Shown here in pieces: positions 2,367 through 14,544 of a stretch of 64,000 bases of DNA; position 1 is the first letter of the stretch; each line of letters begins with the position of its first letter. The translations under genes were made by a program, and so were the position numbers. The notes under the pieces were generated by a model, which worked only from the letters and a program-made list of their open reading frames with translations, was not told where the DNA came from and searched no databases. The stretch is from Gillisia sp. (GTDB lineage: Bacteria; Bacteroidota; Bacteroidia; Flavobacteriales; Flavobacteriaceae), in assembly GCA_024635655.1 (NCBI GenBank), contig JAGXIL010000024.1, positions 124,001-188,000 on the forward strand, read 5' to 3'.

Positions 2367-4778
2367 TTATCTCAATTTTGGAAACTTCTGCGGATTTGAT
2401 TCGCGCATGATCTCGTATACTTTTTCGTAAATATCTTCAGCTGAAGGTTTAGAAAAATAATCGCCATCAGTTCCGTATGCCGGTCGGTGAGCTTTGGCGG
2501 CAAGAGTTTGCGGTTTACTGTCCAGATGTATATAAGCATTTTGTTCTTCTACAATTTTTTGCAGAATATAAGCTGATGCCCCTCCCGGAACGTCTTCGTC
2601 AATAACCAGTAATCGGTTGGTTTTTTCTATACTCTTTATGATGTCCTTACTAATATCAAAAGGCAGCAGGGACTGTATGTCTATAACTTCTGCATTAATA
2701 CCTACATCCTCCAGTTCGTAGGCTGCTTCTTCTACCAGTCTCAAGGTTGAGCCGTAGGAGACCAGCGTAATATCTGTTCCTTCTTTAATGGTTTCAACCA
2801 CCCCAAGAGGAGTTCTGAATTCTCCGATATTGGTAGGAAGTTTTTCTTTTAACCTATATCCATTAAGGCATTCTACTACCAGTGCAGGTTCATCTGCCTG
2901 TAGCAAGGTATTATAAAATCCGGCGGCTTTGGTCATATTACGGGGTACAAGAATATGCATTCCTCTTAAAAGATGCACCAGTGCCCCCATAGGTGATCCA
3001 CTGTGCCAGATCCCTTCGAGTCTGTGGCCACGGGTTCTTACAATTAGCGGCGCTTTTTGTTTTCCTTTTGTTCGGTACTGTAAGGTCGAAAGGTCATCAC
3101 TCATGATCTGTAAGGCATATAAAACGTAATCCAGATACTGGATCTCTGCAATAGGCCTTAAGCCTCGCATTGCCATTCCCAGGCCTTGTCCAAGAATAGT
3201 TGCTTCCCTTATGCCGGCATCTGCCACCCGCAGTTTTCCATATTTTTCCTGAAGACCTTCCAGTCCCTGGTTGACATCTCCAATTTCTCCGCTGTCTTCC
3301 CCGAAGATCAAAGTTTCCGGCCGGGTTTCAAAGATCTTGTCAAAATTGTTCCGAAGGATTATCCTTGCATCCACTTCCTGCGAATCTGAAGAATATGTAG
3401 GTTCTACAGCTTTCACCTGAAGGGCATTTTGATTTGATTCGCTGTAAAGGTTACTGCTGTATTCCGGTTGAGAATTCCGGGTGTATTCCTCAATCCAGTT
3501 GATCAGTTCTGTTTTGGCTTCACTTTCAGTACCAATTAAGAACCTGAGACTTTTTCTTGCTGCTACCAAAAGATCCTTTTTTAGCGGATCCTTAGTTTCT
3601 GAAACTTCTTTTTTTAAGGAAAGAATAGTTTCTTTGTTAGTAATATCCTCTGCTACTTTCTCGAGCAATGGGAGCAGTTCTTTTTGCTTAACCTTCATAG
3701 GATTGGCATAAGCTTCCCAGGCAGCTTTTTTACCATCGCGGACCAGCTTTTTTATATCCTTTTCCAATTCCTGTAATTCCTCTTCACTGGCAAAATTGTT
3801 CTCGATCACCCATTCCCGGAATTTTACATTACAATCAAACTCCCGTTCCCAGCTCAACCTTTCTTCATTTTTGTAGCGCTCGTGTGATCCTGAGGTGGAG
3901 TGGCCCTGAGGTTGAGTAAGTTCTTTAACATGTATAAGGACCGGGGAATGACTTTTACGTGCAATTTTAGAAGCTTTTTCATAAGCTTCAACAAGGGCTA
4001 CATAATCCCAGCCATTAACAATAATTATTTCGTATCCTTTATTTTCGTCATCTCGTTGAAAGCCTTTCAGGATCTCACTAATGTTTTCTTTTGTGGTCTG
4101 ATATTTTGCGTGGACAGAAATTCCGTATTCATCATCCCATACACTCATTACCATAGGTACTTGAAGCACCCCGGCTGCGTTTATGGTTTCCCAGAAATGT
4201 CCTTCACTGGTACTTGCATTACCTATAGTTCCCCATGCAATTTCATTTCCTTTATCTGAAAACCTGGCAGCATCTATTCCTTCTACATTCCTATATATCT
4301 TGGAGGCCTGGGCCAGACCTAAAAGCCTTGGCATTTGTCCTGCGGTAGGAGAAATATCTGCACTGGAGTTCTTTTGTTCCATCAAATTTTTCCAGGTTCC
4401 ATCCTCCTTTAAGCTATGGGTAGCAAAATGCCCGCCCATTTGTCTTCCTGCAGACATTGGTTCTTCCTCAATAGAGGTATTGGCATATAATCCTGCAAAG
4501 AACTGTTCAATATTAAGAGCGCCAATGGCCATCATTAAAGTTTGATCGCGGTAATATCCGGAACGAAAATCTCCATTTTTGAAGACTTTTGCCATGGCAA
4601 GTTGCGGTAGTTCCTTTCCATCACCAAAGATCCCGAATTTTGCTTTTCCTGTTAGCACTTCTCTTCTTCCCAAAAGACTACATTCCCTACTGGTAACGGC
4701 GATTTTATAATCATCAATAACCTGGATTTTGAAATCTTCAAAAGAAATGGACTCTTTGGTAGGTGTGTTGCTGTGCAT
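2367..4778 (-). CDS. 2-oxoacid dehydrogenase E1, fused alpha and beta subunits
   Basis: An 803-residue fusion. The N-terminal half (about residues 40-390) is an E1-alpha thiamine diphosphate domain with GNASTSEGHFWETINAAG in the cofactor-binding region. The C-terminal half (about 470-800) is an E1-beta transketolase-like domain with FGEDSGEIGDVNQGL, GIREATILGQGLGMAM and the C-terminal transketolase fold. The enzyme decarboxylates a 2-oxoacid, probably a branched-chain one, and passes the acyl group to an E2 lipoyl enzyme that is not in this window. Fused E1 proteins are usual in Bacteroidota. A linker of about 80 residues (390-470) joins the halves. It stands alone with its own promoter candidate. 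Pyruvate or 2-oxoglutarate as substrate cannot be excluded from sequence. Confidence 0.88.
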   Translation of the reverse strand: MHSNTPTKESISFEDFKIQVIDDYKIAVTSRECSLLGRREVLTGKAKFGIFGDGKELPQLAMAKVFKNGDFRSGYYRDQTLMMAIGALNIEQFFAGLYANTSIEEEPMSAGRQMGGHFATHSLKEDGTWKNLMEQKNSSADISPTAGQMPRLLGLAQASKIYRNVEGIDAARFSDKGNEIAWGTIGNASTSEGHFWETINAAGVLQVPMVMSVWDDEYGISVHAKYQTTKENISEILKGFQRDDENKGYEIIIVNGWDYVALVEAYEKASKIARKSHSPVLIHVKELTQPQGHSTSGSHERYKNEERLSWEREFDCNVKFREWVIENNFASEEELQELEKDIKKLVRDGKKAAWEAYANPMKVKQKELLPLLEKVAEDITNKETILSLKKEVSETKDPLKKDLLVAARKSLRFLIGTESEAKTELINWIEEYTRNSQPEYSSNLYSESNQNALQVKAVEPTYSSDSQEVDARIILRNNFDKIFETRPETLIFGEDSGEIGDVNQGLEGLQEKYGKLRVADAGIREATILGQGLGMAMRGLRPIAEIQYLDYVLYALQIMSDDLSTLQYRTKGKQKAPLIVRTRGHRLEGIWHSGSPMGALVHLLRGMHILVPRNMTKAAGFYNTLLQADEPALVVECLNGYRLKEKLPTNIGEFRTPLGVVETIKEGTDITLVSYGSTLRLVEEAAYELEDVGINAEVIDIQSLLPFDISKDIIKSIEKTNRLLVIDEDVPGGASAYILQKIVEEQNAYIHLDSKPQTLAAKAHRPAYGTDGDYFSKPSAEDIYEKVYEIMRESNPQKFPKLR

Positions 4779-4994: not shown

Positions 4995-7811
4995 CTAATA
5001 CCATTCCCGGGTAAATAACTTTAAGAGTGTACTTAAATCCAGGGTTACAATAAAACGTATTTTTTGATCGTAATTATCCTGCGCAATTTCCCAGCCTAAG
5101 TTGGAATATACAGGGAAAAAAATTTCAAAATAATCCTGTACTAAACTTGCCCGGATTCCGGAATCGTAAACCAATTTTGCAGTAGCTCCATGGTTCTTTA
5201 CCAAACCAGCATCCCCATAGGCGAAGATCCATTTATATATATTGGTACTTGCATTAACTGTGGTAAGCCATTGATTTGCAAACCCGGGTTCCAGCTGAGA
5301 TTTAAAACCTCCTTCTGCCGGAATAAGTTGCTGGCTGAAGAGTCCGCTTCCCTGGCTTCTTCCGTAGTAATTGTAATCAAATAAATAATCTGTAGGTCTA
5401 TCCAGGGCAAAACTGAAATAATCGTTATCTTTTTCTTCGTTGTAAAGAAAAGTTCCTGCGAACAGGCGTAAATTGATTTGTTGGTTATTCCTGAACAATT
5501 TACGGTATTCCATTTCCAGTGAGACTTTACTGAAGTTCTTTGCAAGTTCATAATCCAAACCACCCGCTATGTAATCTACCAGATTGGTGTCGCTATAATT
5601 ATAGCTTACATTAAATACATTGTAATTTGGCTGGTCAATGGGAAAAAGGGGATCCATATCCCGCTGTACATTTACATTTCGAAGGGTTAAGCTTTGGCGT
5701 TCATTATCCCTCAGGTATGGATTCCGGAAATAAAATCCAAGATAAGGAGTGAATTTCTCGTAAAAGAGGTCGTACCCATAGGAAAAGCGAACTCCGCCAA
5801 TCCCATATCGCAAGGCAAATAAATTATCATCGTCAAAATAATGAGTATTACTTACAGAAGCCGAACCAACCACAGTCTTACTTGTAAAACCATATTTGGG
5901 TGCCAGTTTAAAATCCAGGTTTCTGTTTAGAATAGTTTTGTTATACAATTTTGGGCCTACAGCCAAGCCATCATAAAGATTGAAAGTTGCTTCGGGCATA
6001 AAAAACAACTGGGAATAACGCGGATCTTCCACATCCTGAAGCAACCTGAACTGAACCGGTTTATCAAGAAAAGAAGTAATTCCTTTATAGTTATCCCGTT
6101 GGTTAATTTCAGGAATCTTACCTTCATAATTTAATGCCAGACGATCAACACCTTTTCTAGGAATAGTAATGGTGGGATCTTCTTGTGTGTCTTCAACCCA
6201 GGTCTTGAAAACTATTTGGTTATCTCTCAGGCCGTAAAGAGATACCGGCATGTTATTGTCTTTTTTGTTTTTGATCGTTACCCGCAGGGAATCTTTTGAT
6301 TTTTTAACCTTCTGGATTTTAAAATCCATCTTCCCACTGCTGGCAACATAATCATCAAAAAACCAGGAGAGATCTTTTTCAGAGTTTTTCTCTAATACAT
6401 TTTGAAAATCTTCTGCACTGGTGATCTTGAGTTTGTTTTCCTGATAAAATTCTTTAATTGACCTTTCAACAGCATCATTATCTACAAAATCTTCGACATA
6501 TTTTAATCCTGTACCGGCCTTATAAGCATTAGCAATGTTTTCATTGAATTTCACCAGCGAATCCTGGGCAGTGGTAAGGGGCTGGTCAATGTTCAACCGA
6601 GCCATATGCAGATACAGGAAAGGATACTGATCATTAAATTCAAGACTGGCAGCGTGAAACCATCTAATTCCAATAATGTTGCTTAGACTGCCAAGAATTT
6701 TCATATCCGGATAATTTTCATCTACATAATCCATCATCAATGAAATATGAATAGCATCATAAGCCCATTTTTCTTCCCGGGGATTCAAGAAAACTGAATT
6801 TTTTAAATAGTGGTCAGTAATGGTTTTAAGTTGCTTGATATCATATGCGAAACCATCTGGAAAGGGTCTTAAAAATTGAGGCAATTGGTTTAGACCATAA
6901 ACCGGGTTATTAAGATGCTCTTCCTCGGTGATCAACATTTTTTTGTGTGGGTAAGTCCCAAGCCTGGTCTCCAAAAATTTCAGAATCCTATTAAGAATAA
7001 TTCCCTTTATTCCCAGGATCAATCCATCATCTTTAATATTGGTTACTACTTCTACCGAATTTACTTCCAAAGATTCCAATCTATAAGTCCTGGAAAGGTA
7101 TAACTGAGAATTCACCTGATCTGTTCCCGAGAGATAGTTTGTTTTAAAACCATTCTCAGTTCTCATCTCATCATGATTAAGGTTTGAACTAATATAATAA
7201 GAAGGGCGGGTAGTAAGTTTAAGAGTAATATTGGAGGGAACTGTATACTGGTTGGCCAGATTCTTATTGCTGTATATTTGCCATCCTTCGTCATAAACCC
7301 CCGGATTTATATACCAATATTTTAATTTAAAATTTCCCAGATCATCATAACCATACCTGGTGAATTTATCTGAAGGGATCTTAACCTGATACAACAAATT
7401 CAAATAAACCTTATCCCCGGGAGTCAAAGGTTCTTTTAATTCAACCCTAACAAGGTCTGGAGAACTATCGGGCCTGTTCCAGGTAAAACCCTGGACGTTT
7501 TTATCTGTAATACTATAAATTTTGGTTGATCCTCTTTCTTCTTCTTTTGCAAAATGAAATCGTCTTAAATAATCTTCAGCAAATCTTTTTGCAAGGGGAG
7601 TGGATTTATCTTTAAAACTGTTTGCCCAATCATTGAGGAAAATCTCGTGCAAGGTATCATTACTGGTATTTTCATATACAAGTTCCTGCTGAATATTCAT
7701 CGTCCTCGTGGAATCGTTAAGAACAGCAGTAATATCTATAGTTGTTTGGCCATAGCTCAGGCCAAATCCCCAAACCCCCAGAAAAACAAGCAGATATTCT
7801 TTTATATTCAA
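4995..7811 (-). CDS. Degenerate M1-type peptidase fused to an outer-membrane beta-barrel
   Basis: 938 residues. A Sec signal peptide (to about LSYGQ) precedes an M1 aminopeptidase-like part: an N-terminal beta domain opening with DITAVLNDSTRTMNIQQEL, then a helical part to about residue 480. A C-terminal region (about 590-938) is rich in alternating aromatic strands such as FSYGYDLFYEKFTPYLGFYF and fits an outer-membrane barrel. Where M1 enzymes carry HEXXH followed by a glutamate, this protein has ITDHYLKNSVF and later AIHISLMMDY, so no zinc site is visible and it should be catalytically inactive. It is the third gene of a minus-strand run uvrA - LOG - this gene with a 59-base gap. A surface binding or scaffold role is an inference. 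Confidence 0.75.
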   Translation of the reverse strand: MNIKEYLLVFLGVWGFGLSYGQTTIDITAVLNDSTRTMNIQQELVYENTSNDTLHEIFLNDWANSFKDKSTPLAKRFAEDYLRRFHFAKEEERGSTKIYSITDKNVQGFTWNRPDSSPDLVRVELKEPLTPGDKVYLNLLYQVKIPSDKFTRYGYDDLGNFKLKYWYINPGVYDEGWQIYSNKNLANQYTVPSNITLKLTTRPSYYISSNLNHDEMRTENGFKTNYLSGTDQVNSQLYLSRTYRLESLEVNSVEVVTNIKDDGLILGIKGIILNRILKFLETRLGTYPHKKMLITEEEHLNNPVYGLNQLPQFLRPFPDGFAYDIKQLKTITDHYLKNSVFLNPREEKWAYDAIHISLMMDYVDENYPDMKILGSLSNIIGIRWFHAASLEFNDQYPFLYLHMARLNIDQPLTTAQDSLVKFNENIANAYKAGTGLKYVEDFVDNDAVERSIKEFYQENKLKITSAEDFQNVLEKNSEKDLSWFFDDYVASSGKMDFKIQKVKKSKDSLRVTIKNKKDNNMPVSLYGLRDNQIVFKTWVEDTQEDPTITIPRKGVDRLALNYEGKIPEINQRDNYKGITSFLDKPVQFRLLQDVEDPRYSQLFFMPEATFNLYDGLAVGPKLYNKTILNRNLDFKLAPKYGFTSKTVVGSASVSNTHYFDDDNLFALRYGIGGVRFSYGYDLFYEKFTPYLGFYFRNPYLRDNERQSLTLRNVNVQRDMDPLFPIDQPNYNVFNVSYNYSDTNLVDYIAGGLDYELAKNFSKVSLEMEYRKLFRNNQQINLRLFAGTFLYNEEKDNDYFSFALDRPTDYLFDYNYYGRSQGSGLFSQQLIPAEGGFKSQLEPGFANQWLTTVNASTNIYKWIFAYGDAGLVKNHGATAKLVYDSGIRASLVQDYFEIFFPVYSNLGWEIAQDNYDQKIRFIVTLDLSTLLKLFTREWY

Positions 7812-13077: not shown

Positions 13078-14544
13078 ATGAAAAAGTTTAAACTTTCCAT
13101 TGCCAGTTTGGCAGTGTTTGCGATGATCTTTACCTCTTGTAGTAAAGATGAAGTGGGACCAGACTTAGATTCTGATAAGGTAGCCTTATCTTTTGGTGCT
13201 ATTGTAAATGACCTTGTAACCAACAGGGCACAAACCAAACAAGCTATAGGTGATATACCTGCTTGTTCTAGTGATGATCCTGCTTACGTATCTGTTGTTC
13301 TTTCCAGAGATGGTGTGGATATCGTAGGGTCTGATGATGATCCGTTTGAAATTGATCTGGTAAACGGCCAGGTATTTACTGAAGAAGTTGAAGAACTTCA
13401 ATTAACTGCTGATATGTACTCTCTTGATCATTTTGCAGTATATAATGCTGATGATGAAGTGATCTGGGTTGCCCCCAGAGCAGGAAGTGAACTTGCAGGC
13501 TGGATTAACAACCCTTTACCACTTGCCATAGATCTTCAGAATGGAGTTAAAAAATACGTTGAAGTACCGGTATTATGTTTTGACAACAGAAATGTCAATG
13601 AGTATGGGTATTTGTTCTTTGAATTAGATGCAACAGAAGCTGTTGAATTCTGCTTCTTTGCTAACTATTGTCCTCCAAATGGACGTCACTATACCGCTAA
13701 TTACAGCGTAAGTATCTGGCAGGGAACGGATGCAACCGGAACACCACTTTACACAGATCATATGGCTGAAACAGGACAGTATGACAATGGGGATTATTTT
13801 GCAGATCCTACCTGTTTTGCATTGCCGAGCAATGATGATGTAAATGAGGAATATTTATACTATGAAGTAACCTTATTAGACTGGCCAAATAACTATGGTT
13901 CTGTTACTACAACTGTAGCCTATGGTACGCTAAGCATGCAGGACATCATGAACAATTTTGATGGAGCAAACAATGTGGATTACCAACATTTAAGATTTGG
14001 ATGTGATGGTGATGGTGGAATTCCTATTGGAAGTGGACCAGGTGAGGGTACTCCAGGTGATGGAAATGGTGGAACCCCAGGTGATGGAAATGGTGACGGT
14101 GACGGTGACGGTGACGGTGATGGTGACGGTGACGGTGATGATAACTGTGAAACAGCCTTTATGTTTGGAGAAGATTCTTTCAGGGAGCTTGGAATAGGTA
14201 ATCGCTGGGGATGGGCTACTGAATATACTGGAGGTACTACCGGAACCTTTACACATACATTATATGCAGCTGCCGGTAATAACAATACTGACAATGGTTA
14301 TGTAGCAGGTACTGTAACAGTAACTGTAAACGGAGATGATGTAAACGTGTCTATTGACCCTGCAGATGGCATTTCTTTAAATGAAGTCCATGTTTATCTT
14401 GAGGATGCGGCTCCTACCACAACAGCACCAGGACAGTATGGAAATACTGATGAAGATCCTAATGCTTCCGGAGAATCTTATGATTACACTTATAGTGGAG
14501 ATGGAGATTTCTGGATAATTGTTCACGCTGTTACTTGTGAATAA
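13078..14544 (+). CDS. Modular surface lipoprotein A (shared N-domain, GD linker, C-terminal module)
   Basis: 488 residues, family not recognised. A lipoprotein signal peptide ends in FTSC, and SKDE after the cysteine fits the Bacteroidota surface-export signal. Residues about 25-310 form a domain shared with the next two genes, marked by [33 protein letters not shown] and a final HLRFGC, with conserved cysteines. A flexible Gly-Asp linker (about 315-358) encoded by a GGTGAC microsatellite leads to a C-terminal module (CETAFMFGEDSF...WIIVHAVTCE) of a type seen in Bacteroidota secreted proteins. It is first of three tandem paralogues, has its own terminator, and lies 208 bases after the LuxR gene. 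Probably surface exposed; the ligand is unknown. Confidence 0.75.
   Translation: MKKFKLSIASLAVFAMIFTSCSKDEVGPDLDSDKVALSFGAIVNDLVTNRAQTKQAIGDIPACSSDDPAYVSVVLSRDGVDIVGSDDDPFEIDLVNGQVFTEEVEELQLTADMYSLDHFAVYNADDEVIWVAPRAGSELAGWINNPLPLAIDLQNGVKKYVEVPVLCFDNRNVNEYGYLFFELDATEAVEFCFFANYCPPNGRHYTANYSVSIWQGTDATGTPLYTDHMAETGQYDNGDYFADPTCFALPSNDDVNEEYLYYEVTLLDWPNNYGSVTTTVAYGTLSMQDIMNNFDGANNVDYQHLRFGCDGDGGIPIGSGPGEGTPGDGNGGTPGDGNGDGDGDGDGDGDGDGDDNCETAFMFGEDSFRELGIGNRWGWATEYTGGTTGTFTHTLYAAAGNNNTDNGYVAGTVTVTVNGDDVNVSIDPADGISLNEVHVYLEDAAPTTTAPGQYGNTDEDPNASGESYDYTYSGDGDFWIIVHAVTCE
14092..14139 (+). repeat. GGTGAC hexanucleotide microsatellite encoding a Gly-Asp linker
   Basis: About eight in-frame GGTGAC/GGTGAT units. 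Because the unit is six bases, slippage would change linker length without breaking the frame. It separates the shared domain from the C-terminal module of lipoprotein A. Confidence 0.85.

Follow-up and report, generated by a model that had tools for sequence, protein, structure and literature searches.

An inactive M1-peptidase fold joined to a predicted Omp85-like outer-membrane barrel in Flavobacteriaceae

The window analysed here is a stretch of 64,000 nucleotides from a Gillisia sp. contig (JAGXIL010000024.1). Near its beginning, on the reverse strand, lies the gene of a protein with an M1-type domain and a barrel, whose features are collected in Table 1. Since the open frame comprises only 942 codons, the true start lies at or near the TTG codon of the 938-codon ORF. 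Gln22 is invariant in the orthologue alignment A2 (50 rows), and a cleavage before this residue agrees with the Bacteroidetes Q-rule for signal peptides (PMC5837995). No cysteine is present in the protein (count 0), and thus it is not a lipoprotein. The closest named relatives are from Gillisia species (66-72% identical). Beside this gene, positions 2367-4778 (reverse strand) encode a 2-oxo-acid dehydrogenase E1 (803 aa) in which the alpha and beta parts are fused into a single chain. Two overlapping genes occupy positions 44-1979 of the forward strand, and the longer of them (432-1979) has three matches to bPH_2 (bacterial PH). Another forward-strand gene (13078-14544) encodes a protein with a long GDGDGDGD run in the middle of its sequence, and the antisense frames are open across this repeat.

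Table 1. Features of the M1-barrel gene and its product (positions in the window)
Feature	Position	Strand	Basis
Complete gene, 938 aa, TTG start: inactive M1-fold domain and Omp85-like barrel	4995..7811	-	ORF; orthologues
Signal peptide, residues 1-21, predicted cleavage before Gln22	7749..7811	-	sequence; Bacteroidetes Q-rule; Q22 invariant
M1 N-terminal beta domain, residues 22-258	7038..7748	-	AlphaFold2 model; Foldseek
Former catalytic (thermolysin-like) and helical region of the M1 fold, residues 259-490	6342..7037	-	model, Foldseek, alignment with active relatives
YGLNQLP (305-311) replacing the GMEYP (GXMEN) exopeptidase motif; Glu to Asn308	6879..6899	-	alignment
K329-T-I-T-D333 replacing HEXXH	6813..6827	-	alignment
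Asp352 replacing the third zinc ligand Glu (WMDEG to WAYDA)	6756..6758	-	alignment
Ala429 at the catalytic Tyr position	6525..6527	-	alignment
Beta-sandwich linker domain, residues 491-596	6024..6341	-	model secondary structure
Omp85-like outer-membrane barrel, residues 597-938	4998..6023	-	barrel-model Foldseek; profile comparison with TamL/BamA
Long loop between strands 11 and 12 (Omp85 L6 position), DRPTDYLFDYNYYGRS...SGLFSQQ...AEGGFKS, the most conserved stretch	5277..5438	-	model, conservation

The M1 model of Pfam (PF01433) scored 13.8 bits against the 938-aa protein, below the curated cut-off of 27.7 bits, and sequence searches against solved structures gave no relative of it. The AlphaFold2 model of the full protein, calculated with 50 orthologues in the input, had a pLDDT of 82.8 and a pTM of 0.81. 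When this model was searched with Foldseek, IRAP, ERAP1 and ERAP2 were matched over about 600 columns (E values from 6e-18 to 1e-15). As modelled, the N-terminal part is a non-catalytic M1-aminopeptidase fold. An initial sequence-only reading of this DNA had proposed the M1 layout, and the structure prediction confirmed that the fold is present. The window protein shares its N-terminal fold with the three aminopeptidases, whereas the zinc and exopeptidase sites are missing and a barrel replaces the C-terminal helical domain. TAF2-type M1 pseudoenzymes also retain the M1 fold as a non-catalytic scaffold, as the window protein does; however, TAF2 is a nuclear subunit of TFIID and has no barrel.

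The position of the former active site was taken from an alignment, rather than a superposition, with relatives that share the architecture and still have the zinc site. Six positions are invariant in the active forms (37/37), and all six are substituted in the window protein. The Glu of GXMEN is replaced by Asn308, the His, Glu and His of HEXXH by Lys329, Thr330 and Asp333, the third ligand Glu by Asp352 and the catalytic Tyr by Ala429. At the GMEYP position, where all 37 active forms have Glu, 63 of the 72 Flavobacteriaceae orthologues have Asn. The two His and the Glu of HEXXH are likewise present in 37/37 active forms each, whereas Lys329 occupies the place of the first His in 69/72 Flavobacteriaceae and in every one of the 50 rows of A2; in the sister families, it is mostly not retained. 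The third-ligand position (Glu in 37/37 active forms) is Asp in 47, Gly in 15 and Glu in 6 of the 72, and the catalytic Tyr is also found in 37/37 active forms. Trp349 is retained in 70/72 Flavobacteriaceae orthologues. No HEXXH was found at the site in the 80 named orthologues (0/80). The replacement of the HEXXH-E site noticed in the sequence-only reading is real, and both motifs that it pointed to align with HEVGH and WMDEG of the active relatives. Its proposal of peptide binding is weakened as far as the aminopeptidase mode is concerned, since the GXMEN Glu, which holds the substrate N-terminus, and the catalytic Tyr have also been lost.

We also searched residues 259-490 for an alternative zinc site. 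No position was His, Cys, Asp or Glu in at least 85% of the 72 Flavobacteriaceae orthologues. Judged from these alignments, a conserved alternative zinc site is unlikely, given that neither a conserved ligand-capable cluster nor any cysteine is present. Of the two findings that the sequence-only reading had named as refuting it, an absent M1 fold and an alternative zinc site, neither was made. Tyr430 was considered as a retained catalytic Tyr; however, it is one position off, and the aligned column is Ala429. A HERGH string near residue 88 in two loci (L010 and L151) is outside the site and is a chance match. A genome-wide loss or an assembly error was rejected, since HEXXH is retained in all six further M1 proteins that the genome encodes.

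A full orthologue was found in about 145 of the 151 Flavobacteriaceae genomes (rows with strong matches), a count that depends on incomplete genomes. Together with the HEXXH count, this result shows that the observation is not due to chance and that the loss is conserved in this family; the sequence-only reading had put forward such a check for Flavobacteriia. Searches of the phylum and the order recovered both active and inactive relatives. The active homologues elsewhere in Bacteroidota (L065-L072, L115 and L122-L135) are of the same length class (about 930-1070 aa) and domain order, and can be aligned end to end with the window protein. They retain GMEYP, HEVGH, the third Glu and the catalytic Tyr (37/37), whereas the window clade has lost all of them. 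In a tree of 78 proteins, made by a quick method with the zinc-site columns left out and containing a few long branches, the inactive proteins grouped together in a single clade (SH-aLRT 99), and a single change of state was needed. This clade holds Flavobacteriaceae (f1, so named because of its named relatives) and five sister families coded f2, f51, f52, f55 and f60; as a guess, f2 may be Weeksellaceae. The sister of the inactive clade is an active protein of family f53 (L115), which retains HEIGH and has the same E1 dehydrogenase gene downstream, 70 bp away. This placement and the shared E1 gene support orthology of the active and inactive forms rather than convergence. The sequence comparisons indicate that the whole active site was lost once, ancestrally, before Flavobacteriaceae and the five sister families.

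Some proteins of f55 (L110, L116 and others) retain only the first zinc His, in the form HARAE. This is an intermediate state, as expected under stepwise decay. A Flavobacteriaceae-type inactive copy with the uvrA-LOG-E1 synteny (L106, on G483:C33) was assigned to f63 and falls inside Flavobacteriaceae; its contig is probably misbinned. A partial f59 sequence (L136), which has HEVGH, was counted as lost by a position filter in the identity and residue counts and is absent from the tree, and the conclusions are unaffected.

The constraint on the domains was compared between the two clades. Among pairs with 20-30% identity in the barrel, the mean identity of the catalytic core was 54% in the active clade versus 16% in the inactive clade. 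Branch lengths were then fitted for each domain on one fixed tree, and the ratio of tree lengths (inactive/active) was taken relative to the barrel. By this measure, the core was 5.0-fold faster in the inactive clade, the N-terminal domain 4.75-fold and the helical region 2.0-fold. On the stem of the inactive clade, there were 1.24 changes per site in the core versus 0.05 in the barrel. Therefore, constraint was relaxed on the peptidase part but maintained on the barrel. Conservation is now highest in the L6-like loop (FSFALDRPTDYLFDY and LFSQQLIPAEGGFKS); next come the C-terminal barrel and, from the former active site, PVYGLNQLPQFLRPF. In Flavobacteriaceae, the surface of the former active site is again conserved (G306, N308, P311, K329 and W349). 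After the loss, constraint thus shifted away from the peptidase part and onto the barrel and the L6-like loop.

The models place a transmembrane barrel of 15-16 strands, 15 long ones and a short last one, in the C-terminal third, as the sequence-only reading had suspected for the outer membrane; its likeness to Omp85 had not been seen. When the barrel-only model was searched with Foldseek, 50 of the 50 PDB matches listed were Omp85/TpsB proteins (TamA, Sam50, BamA, FhaC and Toc75), BamA of F. johnsoniae among them. Since the TM-scores to solved Omp85 barrels were moderate (0.37-0.49), a second, independent test was performed by sequence-profile comparison. With hhalign, the profile of 138 family barrels aligned with TamL-type proteins of Flavobacteriaceae and relatives over 295 columns (E value 3.1e-5, for a single comparison), and with a mixed Omp85 set at an E value of 2.1e-4; reversed-sequence controls gave 0.15-0.2, with 0.15 for the TamL-type set. 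These values come from the diverse alignment; a narrow alignment of the barrel was uninformative. In the profile comparison, the strand motif YGDAG of the barrel was aligned with FaDaGN of TamL, and the long loop between strands 11 and 12 is at the position of Omp85 L6. PF01103, the Omp85 model of Pfam, did not match the barrel, and the literal (V/I)RG(F/Y) motif is absent from the L6-like loop, which holds YYGRS...SQQ...EGGFK. A POTRA domain is also absent, and in the model its place is occupied by the M1 fold. The models and profiles identify the barrel as a divergent Omp85-type barrel.

TamA/TamL, BamA, Sam50 and FhaC thus have the barrel fold and the long strand 11-12 loop in common with the window protein, and the profile similarity is to TamL. 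However, the window protein differs from them by the M1 fold at its N-terminus and by the lack of POTRA, RGF/Y and a PF01103 match. Several accepted Omp85/TpsB subfamilies likewise have no N-terminal POTRA. An enzyme-type domain precedes the Omp85 barrel in PlpD, a patatin-Omp85 protein, and in the "Metallo" (PF00149) Omp85 proteins, as in the window protein (PMC4104836). PlpD has patatin and POTRA and "Metallo" has PF00149, whereas the window protein has the M1 fold instead. The ten subfamilies of the 2014 Omp85 census contain no M1 fusion (PMC4104836). We found no description of the M1-Omp85 architecture in the literature searched, which lacked most subscription journals, and its novelty is provisional.

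The combination of a peptidase-shaped domain with an Omp85-like barrel suggests that an enzyme was turned into a part for membrane assembly or transport. Our preferred reading, to which we give a probability of about 45%, is that of an Omp85-like protein for assembly or translocation at the outer membrane, in which the M1 fold, lying in the periplasm, has become a docking scaffold comparable to POTRA. The protein would be exported by Sec and cleaved by signal peptidase I before Gln22. By analogy with BamA and TamA, the M1 domain would hang in the periplasm below the barrel, where those proteins have their POTRA domains, and the barrel would assemble or translocate envelope proteins, or perhaps lipids, like other Omp85 proteins. 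In the ancestor, the M1 domain presumably trimmed or degraded peptides at the mouth of the barrel. It may now dock clients or partners through the rebuilt surface of the former active site (YGLNQLP, Lys329 and Trp349). A wider claim is more doubtful, namely that these proteins are a novel Omp85-like assembly or translocation class of Bacteroidota in which M1 replaces POTRA, the peptidase having died in the ancestor of Flavobacteriaceae and the five related families and become a client-docking domain, and that the class is a lineage-specific factor distinct from BAM and TAM. The M1-barrel gene is missing from many small genomes of the order, and therefore the protein is not a universally required assembly factor. 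A required component of T9SS was rejected as its role, since many complete genomes (for example, f55 g337 and f56) have SprA but not this gene. A subunit of the F. johnsoniae BAM complex was also rejected, since no reported subunit is described as a peptidase-type protein (PMC12611786).

Other roles were weighed against this assembly role. The barrel might be a pore or receptor for peptide uptake or gating, with an M1 fold that still binds peptides without cutting them, the peptide binding suggested in the sequence-only reading. The strong conservation of the former active-site region in Flavobacteriaceae (YGLNQLP, K329 and W349) would fit this; however, nothing is left of the zinc ligands, of the catalytic Tyr or of the Glu to which the peptide N-terminus binds, and the conserved neighbours are genes for cytosolic enzymes (uvrA, LOG and the E1 dehydrogenase), not uptake genes. 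To our knowledge, Omp85 barrels do not serve as peptide uptake porins. We consider uptake improbable. Slightly less probable still is a plain structural protein or scaffold of the outer membrane with no role in transport, the M1 fold of which merely recruits other periplasmic proteins. The loss of all catalytic residues from a retained fold, and strong conservation with no identifiable catalytic site, are in line with such a scaffold, whereas the very high conservation of the L6-like loop exceeds the need of a plain anchor.

A surface passenger is given the same low standing as the structural scaffold. In this case, the M1-fold domain would reach the cell surface by way of its own barrel and act there as a binding protein (an adhesin or peptide catcher), and the enzyme form would have been a surface peptidase. 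PlpD, with its similar layout of an enzyme fold followed by a barrel, delivers its own enzyme domain to the surface through the Omp85 barrel (PMC4104836). However, PlpD has POTRA and the window protein does not, and after the loss the barrel and the L6-like loop are the most constrained parts and the M1 domain the least, which is the reverse of a working passenger. Very unlikely is an enzyme with a rebuilt site that is zinc-free or differently coordinated, for example, around Lys329: the near-constancy of this residue in Flavobacteriaceae speaks for it, but K329 is mostly not retained in the sister families, and residues 259-490 contain no conserved His/Cys/Asp/Glu cluster.

E. coli and Bacteroidota are known to assemble their outer membranes differently (PMC12611786), and the conserved M1-barrel gene is a candidate for an unrecognised part of this process in Bacteroidota. 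The M1 peptidase fold with an Omp85-like barrel adds a phylum-wide, apparently undescribed architecture to the superfamily that builds outer membranes. The family is also a natural experiment: catalysis was lost once in an ancestor, an active sister has the same gene next to it, and constraint has measurably shifted from the enzyme to the barrel.

The surroundings of the gene were compared at 80 loci. Among the named loci with enough flank, LOG precedes the M1-barrel gene in 76/76 and uvrA does so in 70/70. The co-orientation with uvrA and LOG pointed out in the sequence-only reading is correct, and the order is stable in Flavobacteriaceae; what had been called an odd combination is a stable vertical synteny that carries little functional weight. 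In f2 and in the active relatives, no uvrA-LOG pair was detected next to the gene, and the same is mostly true of the sister families, so that the order says little about the function of the M1-barrel protein. A functional link to uvrA and LOG was thus rejected, and the arrangement was taken as inherited order. The fused E1 dehydrogenase gene follows within 500 bp in 64/77 loci; as this linkage is present even in the active sister L115, it looks older than that of uvrA and LOG. In some genera (L163, L169, L190, L212 and L218), LOG and the M1-barrel gene are separated by an inserted gene of about 1.2 kb. It encodes an exported protein of the endonuclease/exonuclease/phosphatase family, and the L163 copy has a type 9 secretion tail.
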